A stretch of 64,000 nucleotides of DNA from a virus. This document shows, piece by piece, positions 49,335-62,689 of this stretch (the stretch's first letter is position 1; the number at the start of each line of letters is the position of its first letter). A model generated the notes under the pieces. The model was not told the origin of the DNA. It was given only the letters and a program-made list of their open reading frames with translations, and ran no database searches. Position numbers and translations under genes: made by a program. Location: IMG/VR virus record IMGVR_UViG_3300043399_001092, positions 1 through 64,000 of that record. The stretch is one strand, 5' to 3'.

Positions 49335-50918
49335 TTAGTAGGAGGTATCGGGGACGTATTCAATACGACCAATACGCGAGGTATCCCACACACAAAGCGA
49401 ACCGGACATTTCACGAACAATTTTCGCTTTCTTGTTTTCAGCGTACACGTTGCCGCCGGACTTTTCAGCACCGGTTTCAAAGTCGTACACGTTGGACACC
49501 GTGTAGTAGCTCTCCACACCGTCCTGCATCACCATGGTGATGTTCTCATCGCGAGTGGAACCCGAAGCCTTCTGGTCCGTCTTACCGAAGTCGAAGATGT
49601 CCATGCAGAACGATTCGATGGGGTAGTTGGAACCGGGGGCCAGTTGAGGGAAGATGGCTTTGTTGTCCTTGATGGGATCGTACACCAGTTCAACCACGAT
49701 GCCGTTGGGAGCCAACCACTTCGTGAACTGACGACCGACTTCCATCGAGTTGCTGTGGAACTCCGACTTGGTCTTGTTGATCAACATGGTGTCAACCGTC
49801 AGCACCGAGCCGTATTCATTTTGCAACAGACGAGCCAAGAGAAGAGCACCGGCGGAACCCGTAGCGATACGGATGTGACGATCCGAGAACATCGTACGAC
49901 CGAAGAAGATCGTGTCGAGGTACTGGAAGATGCTATCGAGGGACAGCGAACCGTTGTGCATCATGTAGTGACCATCCTGGACAATCTGCCTCCAACCCGG
50001 AGCAACCTTCAGCGAGGTTCCCGTATCGGGGTCAATAGTGTTCTGGGTACGACCAAATTCCATCAGCATTTCACGGTCACGTTCCACCAGGTTCAGAAGA
50101 CGAGCTTCCGCTTGGGAAATAAACACACCCTGTTGGACTTTTTGAGCCGTCTTGGGATTGATGAAGTCCTGGTTGAAGACATAACCCACACCAACGCCGT
50201 CATAACCCGTGGGACCGGCAAACTTACCGGACTTCTTACGAGCAGCAATTTCAGCGCGGATGGTCTTATCGTCCACTTCAAGTTTACGAGCAACGTTACC
50301 CACCTGGGAGCGCAGTTTGAACATTTGCGCATATTGGTCACCACCGGCTTTGTAGTTCAGGTTGTCGCTGACAGCGGTAGCCACATCGAACATCACACGG
50401 CCGGGTTGCAGAACGTCCGGGGAAATGTAATCCAAGGGATCCGAGGTTTGCAGTTCTACTTCGTATTCCCACGACATGTTGCCGAGGGGACGCGAGTGAC
50501 CAATGATGCGGAGAAGGGGAGCATTGGCATCTTCCGTCTTCAGAAGGACGGGTTCGTGGTACCACGGTTTGTCCAGAGCAATTTTGAAACGGCTGTTGCC
50601 TTTACCCGGCTGAGTGTTTGTACCCAACAGGTCTTGAGTAATGGTCGCGGGAACATAAGCGTTACCCACCATTTCCCATTCGTACTCATCTTTGCCACCG
50701 TCGATCACATACACGTTGCCTTGGGCAATCGTCATGTACGTGAACTTTTTGTTCACAATTTCGGAGGCGGGGTCGGAGGAGAACAGTTGAGCGGTTTTGA
50801 CACCGAACTTAAAGGGTTCGTAGGTCTTGAACATATTTGCATATTGCACATAGTCCCAAGAACTTCCCCCGTACGGGCCGCGGTCAACAGTCACCAAAGC
50901 GGTCAATCTGTTAGTCAT
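49335..50918 (-). CDS. Major capsid protein (HK97-like, crAss type)
   Basis: 527 residues. Position after TerL, portal and scaffold, and the N-terminal TALVTVDRGPYGGSSWDYVQ, fit crAss-like major capsid proteins with an HK97 fold. Long extended segments, a spine-helix candidate (FISQAEARLLNLVERDREML) and a glycine-rich late loop are present. A local G/C-rich codon preference compared with neighbours suits high expression. A terminator follows the stop, and a promoter-bearing gap lies upstream of the scaffold gene. The call rests on gene order and recalled N-terminal similarity. Confidence 0.8.
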   Translation of the reverse strand: MTNRLTALVTVDRGPYGGSSWDYVQYANMFKTYEPFKFGVKTAQLFSSDPASEIVNKKFTYMTIAQGNVYVIDGGKDEYEWEMVGNAYVPATITQDLLGTNTQPGKGNSRFKIALDKPWYHEPVLLKTEDANAPLLRIIGHSRPLGNMSWEYEVELQTSDPLDYISPDVLQPGRVMFDVATAVSDNLNYKAGGDQYAQMFKLRSQVGNVARKLEVDDKTIRAEIAARKKSGKFAGPTGYDGVGVGYVFNQDFINPKTAQKVQQGVFISQAEARLLNLVERDREMLMEFGRTQNTIDPDTGTSLKVAPGWRQIVQDGHYMMHNGSLSLDSIFQYLDTIFFGRTMFSDRHIRIATGSAGALLLARLLQNEYGSVLTVDTMLINKTKSEFHSNSMEVGRQFTKWLAPNGIVVELVYDPIKDNKAIFPQLAPGSNYPIESFCMDIFDFGKTDQKASGSTRDENITMVMQDGVESYYTVSNVYDFETGAEKSGGNVYAENKKAKIVREMSGSLCVWDTSRIGRIEYVPDTSY

Positions 50919-52050: not shown

Positions 52051-54627
52051 TTACTTTTTCTTATCCTTGTTCAACATTTTGTGAATCTTCTCTCTTTCGA
52101 TTTCGAGTTTTTTATCCACCTGATCAAGTTTGCGTTTGTCGTTCTCCATTTGCTGGTAAATCTTCAACGCTTCTAGTTGATCGGGAACTCCGTCCTTGTC
52201 CATGTTCAAATCCTGTTGGAACTTGTACGTATCCAACACCTTGATTTCCATTTCCCGGTCTTTACGCAGTTGCTCCTGGATGATAATCTTATCGATTTCA
52301 TGCTTCTGTTGATCCTCCCTGGATTCAATCTGCATCTGAACCATTTTCTCTTGGGATTCCATTTGAGCCTTCTGCATTTCTTCTTGACGCTTCTGTTGCT
52401 TCTCTTCCAAAAGCAACAGCTTACGATGGATTACATCCGGGCTTTCTCCCTCGGTAATCATCTTGATCAACTCACTAACCATAGAAGCCCCTTGTCCGGC
52501 GTTTTGCGCAATGGAAAACACCGACTGCACCATCATCTGCCGGTACTCCTGTTCAGAAGAACCTGTCTTCACGTACAGACCAATACCTTCATGGTCAAGG
52601 TTTTCGGGAGTAACCTCAAAGAGTTCCACCGTTCCATCAGGAAGAACATACGACAGCCACTGGTCTTGGGACATATCCTCGTTCATCTTCTGCCGGTAGT
52701 AGTACCTAAAGTTGTTCAAGAACGAATTGAGAACATGGGTCCACACTTCTTCGTGTTGATCGTAGAAGTATTCGGTAATAGCATAAGAAGCGGCCAGGTT
52801 TCTCTCGTTGTCTGTTGCCGTCAACTGAGAATTGGCTTGTGCTTCACGCTGGGGAGAAATACCCATAGCCAACGAAATCTCGGTGTTTACATAGTCCAAC
52901 AACCGTTTGAGTGCAAACAGTTGATCGGCACTACCCAAGAAGTAACCATTGCTACCCGGTGAACGGGTGGACGGAGGAAGCGCACCAAAAGAGTTCTGAG
53001 AACCAGAGTAGAAGTTGTAACCTTCTTTCTTAAGATACGTAAGCCACACCGAGAACTTATCCCGGATCTGGTTTCCTTCCATGTCCTGACCAAGACCGTC
53101 GGGAATCTGATCAACGTCAATATCTTGAACAAATCCTTTGTACTTAGCCAATTCCTTGTTGATGACGTGGTTGATGTAGAAAGCCTGGAACTGGTAAGGA
53201 ATAGCTCTCTCAACAAGAGAAACGCTTTCGGAGTTACGGTCACTAAACACCCGGCCTTTGTAAGACAGTTCAAACTTTCCGTAAGGATCGTTTACATCCA
53301 CCGTTTGATTGGGAACCTCTCTACAGTTGACGTACACGTCACCCATCAAACGAGTAAGCTCATACTTCCAAGGAATCCACAGACGCTCCAAGACAAACGC
53401 CGTTTCTCCTTCCATCCATTCCCAAACCTCAATCTCTTCACCGTGCTTAATAGCCGTAGACTTGGTAGCATCTTTGGGAACCTTGAAGTCCTCCGACAAC
53501 ACCTCGGTAATAGTCTTACCGTACTCATCAATGTAGTTAAGGAAACAGACCTCTCGGAAAGCCTTAAACTCAATGTGGGTACACCAGATCAACGAACGAT
53601 ACCGGTCGCGGATGGTACCTGCTTGGGTCATGTGCGTACCTACAAACTTGGAAGCATTAGCTTCCCCTGGCCAATTTTCCCGGTACAACAGCTCATCCCA
53701 GTCGCTTCTAACGGGAACCGCGTTACCTCCACGAACATCAAACCGAGGGTCAGCAATAGTCGGTCCATTGGCATAAAGACCAAGACGCTGCATTTCCTCA
53801 TCCGTCAGTTTATCACCGTACTCCGTGATTACATCCACAGCGGTAATGGACCGGGTCGTGTAAACATAGTCACCCTTCTGGATCCACTTCTGGTTAGGGC
53901 TTTTGTGGAAACCGGTGAACAAAGGGTTGCAAACTTCAATAACCGGTTTATCGCCTCTCCAACCTACGTAGATGATACACCGGTCGGCAATAACGATGTC
54001 ATCCATCGTTTCCACTTTTTTGTCTTTGATCTCCATCGTCAACTCCGCCCACTTGAGTACCCGTTCATAGAAACGTTCCCACTCCGTACGGAAATTGGTG
54101 ATGCCAAAACCCTCCGGTAAGTTCTGAGCCAAGAACTCCTGTTTAGCTTGTTCCTGTTGCTCCGGCGGCATTTTAGCTATATCCATCATTTGTGCCATCT
54201 GTTGCAACACTTTCTCCTGTACGTGTTTCTTGTACTCCTCCGTTTTAGACTTGATGTCATCGCTGCTAATGGGAACCACATGATGTCGCGGACGACGTTT
54301 GATAGCTCCATCCCGGAAGATGTTGACCTTGTTGTGGATCATGTTGAAGGGAAGTATCTCCTCTTCAATAGCCACTGCATCCAGTTCACCAAGGGGATCA
54401 CAGAAGCGTTTGAACTCTTCCTTGAATCCGTTGATGTTGTTGTTCACCAGGTCATAGCACCGCTTCAGTTTTTCGTACTCACGAATGATAAACGTCAGCG
54501 TAGGTACGGTATATCGAACATACCGTTTAAACCACTCCGCGTTATTATCGTATTTCTCTTTTTCCGAAACCTTTAGGCTTAATGCTGTAACCGGACGGGT
54601 GTCCGTGTTGTTTGAAAATCCTACCAT
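52051..54627 (-). CDS. Portal protein
   Basis: 858 residues, encoded directly after TerL with an 83-base overlap in another frame. The N-terminal two thirds are mixed alpha/beta, as in portals. The last ~150 residues form a long charged coiled coil (KQQKRQEEMQKAQMESQEKM onward) that would make a barrel or tail-contacting extension. Within it NMDKDGVPDQLE resembles an EF-hand or thrombospondin-type calcium loop (DxDG..D..E). The dodecameric portal is the DNA gate at the capsid vertex. Size and position agree with crAss-like portals. Confidence 0.85.
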   Translation of the reverse strand: MVGFSNNTDTRPVTALSLKVSEKEKYDNNAEWFKRYVRYTVPTLTFIIREYEKLKRCYDLVNNNINGFKEEFKRFCDPLGELDAVAIEEEILPFNMIHNKVNIFRDGAIKRRPRHHVVPISSDDIKSKTEEYKKHVQEKVLQQMAQMMDIAKMPPEQQEQAKQEFLAQNLPEGFGITNFRTEWERFYERVLKWAELTMEIKDKKVETMDDIVIADRCIIYVGWRGDKPVIEVCNPLFTGFHKSPNQKWIQKGDYVYTTRSITAVDVITEYGDKLTDEEMQRLGLYANGPTIADPRFDVRGGNAVPVRSDWDELLYRENWPGEANASKFVGTHMTQAGTIRDRYRSLIWCTHIEFKAFREVCFLNYIDEYGKTITEVLSEDFKVPKDATKSTAIKHGEEIEVWEWMEGETAFVLERLWIPWKYELTRLMGDVYVNCREVPNQTVDVNDPYGKFELSYKGRVFSDRNSESVSLVERAIPYQFQAFYINHVINKELAKYKGFVQDIDVDQIPDGLGQDMEGNQIRDKFSVWLTYLKKEGYNFYSGSQNSFGALPPSTRSPGSNGYFLGSADQLFALKRLLDYVNTEISLAMGISPQREAQANSQLTATDNERNLAASYAITEYFYDQHEEVWTHVLNSFLNNFRYYYRQKMNEDMSQDQWLSYVLPDGTVELFEVTPENLDHEGIGLYVKTGSSEQEYRQMMVQSVFSIAQNAGQGASMVSELIKMITEGESPDVIHRKLLLLEEKQQKRQEEMQKAQMESQEKMVQMQIESREDQQKHEIDKIIIQEQLRKDREMEIKVLDTYKFQQDLNMDKDGVPDQLEALKIYQQMENDKRKLDQVDKKLEIEREKIHKMLNKDKKK

Positions 54628-56908
54628 TGTTGGATAAAAAAGTTAAAGGGTTTTTTTTGTTTGCATCTTTCTCTATGATTACCTCTTGCTCTTTAAGAGC
54701 CAACGGCAATCCCATTAGTGCTGACACCCCGTCGTAGTTTTCGTCGTCGTTGATGTCAAACATAGCTATCTGCCTTACCGTGTACAAACACGGAAGCCGC
54801 TCAATATTCCTCTTTTTTCCGTCCGGCAACTCTGTTTCATCCAGTAACCAGTCGTTCAAGTATTGCACCAAATTCAACTTGGCTGTTTTGTTGCCCACCA
54901 AATACCCATGCTCTGAAGTCTTGGCTTCGTAAATCCTGGATCCCTTAATAGTCATCGGCCTCACCGACAACACATATTGCTTGTTCTTCTTGATAAACCA
55001 GTGCCTTACGTTTTCACCACGGTTTGCTTCGTACCACAATCCACCCATAGGGTTTCCATAGTACTGCACCAGTTTCTCCAAGTTCTCGTTGTACTTATCC
55101 AAAGTCTCCGGCTTACCGATATACGTAGCCATCAGCATATTCCCAGGATGCCCCTCCGGTAAGTACTTGGGATTGGCAAATACATAGGTTGCTCCCAATG
55201 ATTCACCGCCCAAATTGGATACATAGGGGTCATGTACAATAAAGTACAGGTCTTTCTTCTTCGGGTCAAAGAACTCCGGTTCGTTATAGATAACTACACA
55301 ACCTTCACGTTTGTCCAGTTTATCGCTACCATCTACAAAGGGAGAGGTGATCGGTGTAAGCGTAAAGTCCGGGTTAGCTACAACACCACGGGGTGCATTG
55401 GGATCCCACACCAGTCTTACCGTTTTACCCAAGTCCCTCCAGACATTCCGCTTCAACAACTCTTTCTCCCGTGCCCTTGCTTCTTCCCTCGGCAAGAAAT
55501 TACCACCAGAGGTAATCCACATGTGACTAATTAGCAACGGTGAGTGCATACAAGCTGCCCTATATCCCACAGGGTTGTCCTTCAGCTTATCCAATTTATC
55601 CCAAGCGTTCTTCTTTGCAGCTTCCAAGTCAGTGTTGCCGTTCTTATCCTTGAACGCCATGTCAATCATATAAGCCGGTAAGAACAACCCCGTGCGTCCC
55701 ATTTGTCCCGTGTTCTCCAGTACATCCGGGTATGACACCAAGTCGTAGTCCATTGGATGTAAGAAAATCTGCTTGGCACCTTCTACCTTTTCAATATCAC
55801 CAGACGTACCAAGACCTACCAGTGTACCGGTTTTCCTTGCACCACGCTTAACCGTAAATTCGTTGGACGACCAAGCCACCGGTGCTTCTTCCAACAAACC
55901 AATTTCTTCGATGATGTTGTAGTTGTAACGACCAGAAGCAGCGGCTTCAGCATCGTCTTTGTAGTTTACGTGTTTGGCAAAAGACCCGGAACCAATATTT
56001 ACGTCAATACCGTTGGAACCTTTGACCAGCACCTGTTCCCTCCACGGGGATTTAGCGTTGTTCGGTTTTGTTTCCCCGGCCATGTTGCGGAAAAACGGAC
56101 ATGGTTCATAGTCATCCTCACCCACTTTGCCCCATACCCCTAACTCCGGGTTGATAGCAAACTGTCGCATTTGTTCTTCCATGTACTTAAAGAACTGCGA
56201 AGACTTACCGGTGTTTGATGCACCAATACAAATACCGGCTTCTTCTTGGTTCTGGTTGCGTTTCTTAGCCAAGTACTCATCATAGTTGGTTTCACCACAA
56301 AACAGTATCTCATGTAACGCAAAAGCAGACACCGTATAAGTCTTACCGGATGAACGCGCACCGAACAACATCGCGTTCTTAGGGGGATTCAAGTACAGCG
56401 GCCTACCGTAGTTCTTATCATGTAGCCTCTTACAGTACTCCAAAGGATCCTCCCAACGCTTTAGCTCACCGTTGAGCTTAATACATGAAGTATGCAACTT
56501 GTCTTTGGGAAACTCCCCTTTCCAGGCTTTCTGTAACTCAAGGCTGCAGTTGGTTTCATCGTCATCAGCAAACCCGGAAAACCCTTTTGCCACCAAAAAC
56601 ATGTACGCTATCTCCCAGTCAACGTCACGAAGCATAGGTTTAGCTTTGGTAGAAACTTTCTCCCCGTCATCCCGGACCATTATCCAGAAGTTGATGTAGA
56701 AAAACAGCTTTGGCGGCATAAACCTCCACAACCCAAAGTCGTTGTTCCAGAATCCCTCGATGCACCACCGGGAGTACTGCTGCCACAGATTGATGTACTT
56801 AGGTGACGATGGATGGATACGGGGAATCTCTGGTACTTTCCAGTTGTCCGCGTTCTCGATCCGCGTCCACATCCGCTTCTCAGCATCCAATACAGTCCAC
56901 TTTTCCAT
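54545..56908 (-). CDS. terL: Terminase large subunit (TerL)
   Basis: 787 residues. The ATPase P-loop FGARSSGKT (Gly183-Thr190) and Walker B NIIEEIG (331-337) power DNA translocation. The C-terminal RNase H-like nuclease shows VHDPYV (Asp560) and LWYEANRG (Glu628), plus a late Asp-rich helix near DDENYDGVSALMGLPLA. The length is typical of crAss-like TerL proteins. It is the second gene of a small packaging set: the 178-residue gene ends at its start and the portal overlaps its 3' end by 83 bases. High-confidence call from motifs and order. Confidence 0.93.
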   Translation of the reverse strand: MEKWTVLDAEKRMWTRIENADNWKVPEIPRIHPSSPKYINLWQQYSRWCIEGFWNNDFGLWRFMPPKLFFYINFWIMVRDDGEKVSTKAKPMLRDVDWEIAYMFLVAKGFSGFADDDETNCSLELQKAWKGEFPKDKLHTSCIKLNGELKRWEDPLEYCKRLHDKNYGRPLYLNPPKNAMLFGARSSGKTYTVSAFALHEILFCGETNYDEYLAKKRNQNQEEAGICIGASNTGKSSQFFKYMEEQMRQFAINPELGVWGKVGEDDYEPCPFFRNMAGETKPNNAKSPWREQVLVKGSNGIDVNIGSGSFAKHVNYKDDAEAAASGRYNYNIIEEIGLLEEAPVAWSSNEFTVKRGARKTGTLVGLGTSGDIEKVEGAKQIFLHPMDYDLVSYPDVLENTGQMGRTGLFLPAYMIDMAFKDKNGNTDLEAAKKNAWDKLDKLKDNPVGYRAACMHSPLLISHMWITSGGNFLPREEARAREKELLKRNVWRDLGKTVRLVWDPNAPRGVVANPDFTLTPITSPFVDGSDKLDKREGCVVIYNEPEFFDPKKKDLYFIVHDPYVSNLGGESLGATYVFANPKYLPEGHPGNMLMATYIGKPETLDKYNENLEKLVQYYGNPMGGLWYEANRGENVRHWFIKKNKQYVLSVRPMTIKGSRIYEAKTSEHGYLVGNKTAKLNLVQYLNDWLLDETELPDGKKRNIERLPCLYTVRQIAMFDINDDENYDGVSALMGLPLALKEQEVIIEKDANKKNPLTFLSNNGRIFKQHGHPSGYSIKPKGFGKREIR

Positions 56909-61697: not shown

Positions 61698-61765
61698 GAA
61701 ACATTCGTCCAGTGGTAGGACACCTGATTCTTCAGGAGGCAAGGGTTCGATTCCCTTATGTTTCG
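61698..61765 (+). tRNA. tRNA-like element with shortened anticodon loop
   Basis: The cloverleaf is almost complete. The acceptor stem GAAACAT/ATGTTTC is a perfect 7 bp (61698-61704 with 61758-61764). The D arm is GTCC-AGTGGTA-GGAC and the variable loop AGGC. The T arm is AAGGG-TTCGATT-CCCTT, the discriminator G, and no CCA is encoded. The anticodon arm is only 14 bases, CCTGA-TTCT-TCAGG, so the loop has four instead of seven bases and no readable anticodon. Length is 68 bases. It resembles a tRNA from which exactly three loop bases were lost. It may be a decayed tRNA, a functional tRNA-like RNA or a processing signal. Confidence 0.65.
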
Positions 61766-61797
61766 CATTTCTTTCACCATTTAATTCTTTTTCTGTC

Positions 61798-62020: not shown

Positions 62021-62053
62021 AAGGGGGCGCAGCATCCCTTTATCACACTGCAT
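62021..62053 (+). repeat. Intergenic pseudoknot-like element, copy 1
   Basis: AAGGG (62021-62025) can pair with CCCTT (62036-62040), while GCAG inside the loop (62029-62032) can pair with CTGC (62048-62051). It shares GCAGCATCCCTTTA and a following ACTGC-ATTT with the next gap (62344-62381). A pyrimidine-rich leader follows up to the next ATG. Confidence 0.55.
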
Positions 62054-62381: not shown

Positions 62382-62407
62382 TTTATCATTCATAAAATAT
62401 GCACACT

Positions 62408-62689
62408 ATGGCATTTTTGATGAATGCGTTCTCGTTGCAGATGGTCACGGAGTTTCCGTGTACTATCAGCATCGAGGAGGTCAACCAGCTCCCAGAGGGA
62501 CTTGAGTCGGCCATTGGACATCAAGACACGGCTAACGTGTTGGGTGTTCCAATGAACCGGGTCAACGTGTCTCTGTCGAAGGGTGACGTTGCTTATGTAG
62601 CTCAGCTACAAGGCGGTCGTCTTCCTGAGGGGAGTACTACCTTACCTGAAGGCTTCTCTTTGAAGTTTTTCAAGGTAACGGTAGGTTGA
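62408..62689 (+). CDS. AcrIII-1 viral ring nuclease (DUF1874), anti-type III CRISPR
   Basis: 93 residues from ATG 62408 (MAFLMNAFSLQMV); an in-frame ATG at 62399 would add three residues. The DUF1874/AcrIII-1 hallmarks are all present: MNAFSLQM strand, SAIGHQDTANVLGVPM with the catalytic-type His38, VSLSKGDVAYVAQL, and RLPEG with Glu74. Members of this family degrade cyclic tetra-adenylate (cA4), the second messenger of type III CRISPR, so that ancillary nucleases are not activated. The family was first characterised in archaeal viruses (SIRV gp29, STIV B116) and is also found in phages. It acts in the host cytoplasm early in infection, as its operon position suggests. Confidence 0.88.
   Translation: MAFLMNAFSLQMVTEFPCTISIEEVNQLPEGLESAIGHQDTANVLGVPMNRVNVSLSKGDVAYVAQLQGGRLPEGSTTLPEGFSLKFFKVTVG

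Follow-up and report, generated by a model that had tools for sequence, protein, structure and literature searches.

A probable AcrIII-1 ring nuclease of the short-helix form in a crAss-like phage

AcrIII-1 and its described relatives

The closest tested relative of the protein analysed here is AcrIII-1 of THSA-485A, a 41.9 kb Thermoanaerobacterium phage that is not crAss-like by name or size; this enzyme is reported to abolish immunity driven by cyclic tetra-adenylate (cA4) in E. coli (PMC7371418). For AcrIII-1 of SIRV1, a cA4 cleavage rate of 5.4 per min is reported, and the H47A mutant is described as catalytically inactive (PMC7213978). The cellular version, Crn2, is likewise reported to lose its activity when the active-site His is changed (PMC7293037). 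Csx16, which carries a separate family name, is also described as a cA4 ring nuclease (PMC12409355); the same source states that the effector Csx1 responds to cA4, and that AcrIII-1 occurs in 36 of 28,114 phage genomes, a set of 36 that may include a crAss-like one. A dedicated search in 2021 is reported to have yielded no anti-CRISPR that could be predicted confidently for crAss-like phages (PMC7886860), and a study in which machine learning gave Acr candidates by the thousand for crAss-like phages of pigs does not use the word AcrIII (PMC12053484). In the open-licence literature, supplements excluded, we found no paper joining AcrIII-1 with crAss-like phages.

The AcrIII-1 enzyme type is already known; what is new here is its crAss-like phage setting and its shortened form. 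Few viruses of the human gut are as abundant as crAss-like phages. AcrIII-1 in the phage described here and in 12 other crAss-type records is a specific counter-defence gene that can be assayed, and its occurrence there suggests that some crAss-like phages are under real pressure from type III CRISPR signalling.

The gene, its family and its predicted fold

We analysed a stretch of 64,000 bases (the window), which comprises bases 1-64000 of a 79,319-base IMG/VR virus record. On its + strand, an open reading frame (ORF) extends from an ATG at 62408 to a stop at 62689 and encodes 93 amino acids; an alternative in-frame ATG at 62399 would yield a 96-residue product. The features of this ORF are as follows.

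62408..62689, + strand: probable AcrIII-1 / DUF1874 ring nuclease gene (PF08960, phrog_5063, fold match to 6SCF, pN/pS)
62423..62425, + strand: Asn6 of the NAFSLQM motif (N in 80/81 aligned relatives, gap in one)
62519..62521, + strand: His38, at the position of the catalytic His47 in SIRV1 gp29 (PDB sequence alignment; H in 81/81)
62522..62542, + strand: hallmark of the short form, a short helix that follows the catalytic His and is predicted to span residues 39-45 (DSSP of the AlphaFold2 model; spacing 12 rather than 18)
62618..62629, + strand: Arg71 and Glu74 in the RLPEG motif, at the positions of Arg85 and Glu88 in SIRV1 gp29 (PDB sequence alignment; R in 80/81, E in 77/81)

An initial annotation had assigned this ORF to DUF1874/AcrIII-1 by its motifs, and all of those it named are present: MNAFSLQM at residues 5-12, SAIGHQDTANVL, which contains His38 (codon 62519-62521), and RLPEG, with Arg71 (62618-62620) and Glu74 (62627-62629). 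The HMM search that it proposed gave a PF08960 score of 34.6 bits (E=2.2e-8) for the 93-residue protein, above the curated cut-off of 26, and PHROG 5063 matched with E=3.5e-15; NCBIfam models gave no match to the window protein. When the PDB was searched with phmmer, the same protein matched four DUF1874 crystal structures with E=5e-7 to 5e-5 (STIV B116, SIRV1 ORF114, the AcrIII-1:cA4 complex 6SCF, and AFV3-109), the next match having only E=0.6. In the phmmer alignment, the residues of SIRV1 gp29 that stand opposite His38, Arg71, and Glu74 are His47, Arg85, and Glu88, and we take Arg85 and Glu88 to have active-site roles in that protein. The family assignment is therefore borne out by the PF08960 score, the active-site residues, and the fold described below. 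Purifying selection acts on the gene: comparison of the window with eight relatives gives pN/pS values of 0.20-0.39, synonymous sites being near saturation in most of these pairs. Together with the PF08960, PHROG, and PDB matches, these values place the gene well outside what chance would produce.

Some older DUF1874 annotations describe regulatory proteins that bind DNA or RNA, and a relative from Betalipothrixvirus pezzuloense carries the annotation 'DNA binding protein'; the window protein itself weakly matches a winged-helix profile (PF21531), which at E=0.21 does not reach the cut-off. Conservation of the catalytic His, Arg, and Glu argues against such a role, as do published assays in which relatives are reported to be ring nucleases biochemically (PMC7213978, PMC7293037, PMC7371418), and we regard a regulatory function as very improbable.

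The AlphaFold2 model of the window protein (59 sequences, single chain) has a pLDDT of 96.5. Foldseek returned 16 chains at probability 1.00 with this model, belonging only to AcrIII-1, SIRV1 ORF114, B116, AFV3-109, and Csx1-Crn2 (6SCF, E=7.4e-8). Structure prediction followed by superposition, also proposed in the initial annotation, places the model on the SIRV1 AcrIII-1:cA4 complex 6SCF with VIA Z=12.0 and an rmsd of 2.1 over 93 residues, while other DUF1874 structures give VIA Z values of 9.8-11.3. The whole fold is shared with SIRV1 gp29 and STIV B116 (6SCF, 2X4I, 2J85; Z 11.2-12.0), and His47, Arg85, and Glu88 of SIRV1 gp29 are in register with the window protein; these proteins differ from it in that they come from archaeal viruses, have 29-36% identity in structural alignments, and are six residues longer after the His. 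The fold is also shared with Crn2, the cellular DUF1874 protein (e.g., Marinitoga Csx1-Crn2; Z 9.8-10.0). In contrast to Crn2, which is host-encoded and is part of or fused to a CRISPR effector, the window gene sits in a phage genome rather than in a type III CRISPR locus, and no cas match was obtained when 15 other ORFs of its block were scanned with Pfam or PADLOC.

A PADLOC model labelled Csx16 also matches the window protein (E=1.6e-7, 30 bits), a correspondence of label only, and Csx16 is reported both to be cA4-specific and to resemble 2J6B at DALI Z 4.8 (PMC12409355). The PF08960 score above its cut-off and the identity of the matched structures (AcrIII-1, B116, AFV3-109, and Crn2, Z 9.8-12.0) point instead to the DUF1874 type, and we regard a ring nuclease of the Csx16 type as very improbable.

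Taken with the assays on relatives, these comparisons make it highly probable that the gene encodes an AcrIII-1 (DUF1874) phage ring nuclease that cleaves cA4 and blunts type III CRISPR; cA4 cleavage with this effect is by far the best reading of the sequence, the model, and the analogy with tested enzymes. We infer for this protein a dimeric state, cA4 as its substrate, an anti-CRISPR role, and expression during infection, and the host would probably be a member of the Bacteroidota with a cA4-signalling type III system. In the proposed mechanism, the type III CRISPR complex of the host would sense phage RNA, whereupon Cas10 would produce cA4 and thereby activate toxic effectors, Csx1 for example. 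The window protein, as a dimer, would bind cA4, and His38, with Arg71 and Glu74 nearby, would cut the ring to short linear adenylates; upon this removal of cA4, the effectors would never be activated or would be switched off again. Type III systems of Bacteroidota may use other signals, such as SAM-AMP in Bacteroides fragilis.

Short and long helix forms and their distribution

Relatives were collected in two scans of viral contigs (65 loci) and one of genome contigs (17). In an alignment of 81 proteins including that of the window (two truncated ones were dropped from 83), we determined the spacing, a residue count that runs from the catalytic His up to the position immediately preceding the conserved Arg in the strand that follows. 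The spacing takes discrete values: it is 12 in 46/81, 18 in 34/81, and 19 in one, with no values between 12 and 18. The window protein and all 11 of the crAss relatives in the alignment have a spacing of 12; the SIRV1, STIV, and AFV3 proteins have 18 (phmmer PDB alignments), i.e., the solved structures are long. Eleven of the genome contigs have a spacing of 18; the others, with 12, are the two from Prevotellaceae and those from Dysgonamonadaceae, Porphyromonadaceae, Opitutaceae, and Erysipelotrichaceae. Across the 81 aligned proteins, the His is conserved in 81, the Arg in 80, and the Glu in 77, the invariance of the His and NAFSLQM motifs being partly built in because both were used as search words.

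The comparison with the THSA-485A protein illustrates this difference. The two proteins are 60.6% identical and have the same motifs (GGRLPEGSTTLP in the THSA-485A protein) and the same kind of predicted fold. The THSA-485A protein differs in being of the long form, with a spacing of 18, an 11-residue helix, and an extra helix at residues 26-30; the helix after the His spans residues 41-51 in its AlphaFold2 model, versus 39-45 in that of the window protein (DSSP). The alignment thus places the window protein in a short-helix form, one seen repeatedly in crAss-like phages. We know of no short-form family member that has been assayed so far. Because six residues are missing after the catalytic His, the substrate preference or rate of the short form could differ.

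Alternatively, the short helix would have changed the specificity: the protein would bind a cyclic oligonucleotide yet have cA3, cA6, or a cyclic nucleotide of the CBASS type as its target, or would only sequester its ligand. The discrete shortening by six residues right behind the catalytic His fits this possibility, as does the fact that the crAss relatives in the alignment show spacing 12 only. All three catalytic positions are nonetheless retained, and the whole fold superposes on a cA4 complex (Z 12.0, rmsd 2.1 over 93 residues); we therefore consider action on another signal improbable, and cA4 cleavage remains the preferred reading. A further proposal, which we put forward tentatively and consider less likely than not, is that crAss-like and other Bacteroidota phages carry their own short-helix AcrIII-1 subfamily, which spreads as a lone gene from phage to unrelated phage, with the helix tuned to the type III signal or ring size of that phylum. 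If true, no anti-CRISPR of crAss-like phages would have been recognised before this one. With its two discrete helix lengths, the family is natural material for testing the role of the helix in cA4 recognition.

Profiles for both the crAss terminase and the crAss portal matched in 12 of the 48 tested viral records carrying a relative (65 available): L004, L005, L006, L010, L011, L019, L020, L033, L035, L046, L048, and L050. The terminase frame contains 23 TAG codons in L004 (212 kb record) and 9 in L006 (183 kb), and TGA codons in L011 and L035; split terminase matches within one long frame were seen in L019 and L033. These interrupted or split frames likely reflect recoding and inserts.

The reverse comparison started from 80 crAss-terminase loci returned, from which 22 records of 46.9 kb or more were used. 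PF08960 was found in only one of these 22 records, and the portal profile in 21, which indicates that AcrIII-1 is sporadic cargo. The crAss-terminase record G086, in which the portal profile gave no match, carries a long-form AcrIII-1 (L189, 51523-51804) with RPEEG in place of RLPEG. A tblastn search of 'phages' with the window protein and with L010 gave no crAss-like-named record among 21 and 11 matches, respectively, and a plasmid search matched 6 records.

A tree of 77 proteins (six of 83 were left out as truncated or odd) requires at least seven changes between crAss and non-crAss labels and at least five changes of spacing; acquisitions are not countable on a tree so poorly resolved, in which 26 of the 69 inner branches are open, and the records labelled 'non-crAss' may include fragments. 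The gene was likely acquired more than once, as far as its phylogeny suggests.

Phage setting, hosts and neighbouring genes

The initial annotation placed the gene in a crAss-like phage, and profiles for three structural or packaging genes in the window confirm this.

49335..50918, - strand: major head protein (phrog_11589, 9.1e-42)
52051..54627, - strand: portal protein, crAss type (phrog_6547, 4.6e-72)
54545..56908, - strand: terminase large subunit, crAss type (phrog_6681, 1.2e-55)

AcrIII-1 is virus-encoded, since these genes share the same 79,319-base record. They lie in a minus-strand block (about 2.1-60.3 kb) that diverges from a + strand block, in which small ORFs, AcrIII-1 among them, extend from about 60.8 kb on. 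The best named match of the terminase in tblastn is Cellulophaga phage phi14:2 (28% identity, 2e-63), and the named hosts of the terminase relatives are Flavobacterium, Cellulophaga, and Bacteroides. The Bacteroidetes-type promoter word TAnnTTTG occurs 42 times on the + and 41 times on the - strand (raw counts, no control).

It is plausible that the hosts carry cA4-signalling type III CRISPR. Two of the AcrIII-1 contigs (L069, L070) belong to a Prevotellaceae MAG that also has Csm1, Csm2, and Csm3, and Cas10/Csm1 is over the cut-off in 18/198 species of the order to which that MAG belongs. Csx1-type CARF-HEPN effectors were found in two of the four type III loci read and a CARF-adenosine deaminase in one; at the fourth, two ORFs were scanned and neither proved to be an effector (of 49 ORFs at the four loci, 10 were scanned by PADLOC and 9 by NCBIfam). 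PF22335 also matched an E. coli control, and its weaker matches (G051, G061, G063) were therefore set aside. With type III-A systems and CARF effectors present in this order, the likely host group does contain targets.

The initial annotation further proposed the small neighbours of AcrIII-1 as candidate anti-defence genes. We compared the + strand ORFs of at least 40 amino acids from 60.7-79.3 kb with the flanking DNA, up to 8-10 kb, of 82 AcrIII-1 loci, in a set that also contained 8 Cas10 loci. Apart from AcrIII-1 itself, a single distant ORF (75246-75893 vs L018, 38%) is all that this region shares with the surroundings of the relatives. The nearest relative of usable length, the 73.6 kb sister phage G065, has a terminase 91% identical to that of the window and keeps the order of the structural genes; its + strand block shares scattered pieces only, with an almost wholly different gene set and no AcrIII-1. 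DNA of the AcrIII-1 region was also searched in six near-relative records, and nothing was found there. Thus the AcrIII-1 gene moves alone within a fast-turnover region, and its neighbours cannot be called anti-defence on that ground. Guilt by association was rejected, the neighbours not being co-travellers at the 82 loci, and the proposal is left unsupported.

Several minor features were also observed. tRNA-like genes with a two-base anticodon, as read by ARAGORN, lie at 61698-61766 of the window and at L002:9558-9632; the Rfam tRNA score is 60.1 bits at the former position, and 41.6 bits for a further tRNA at L002:10159-10258. The ribonucleotide reductase small subunit gene at L002:16120-18084 (record 76119-78083) contains an intein-like, in-frame LAGLIDADG insert. 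A spore photoproduct lyase homologue (PF20903, 1.4e-20) is found at L002:18485-19318 and L102:15511-15921; that of the sister phage has the same start and then, after about 30 codons, unrelated sequence, perhaps an insert. A repeated GCAGCATCCCTTTA element occurs at 62032 and 62357 of the window, its copies being 77% alike over 31 bases and sitting in the gaps that precede two successive small ORFs, the second of which is AcrIII-1.
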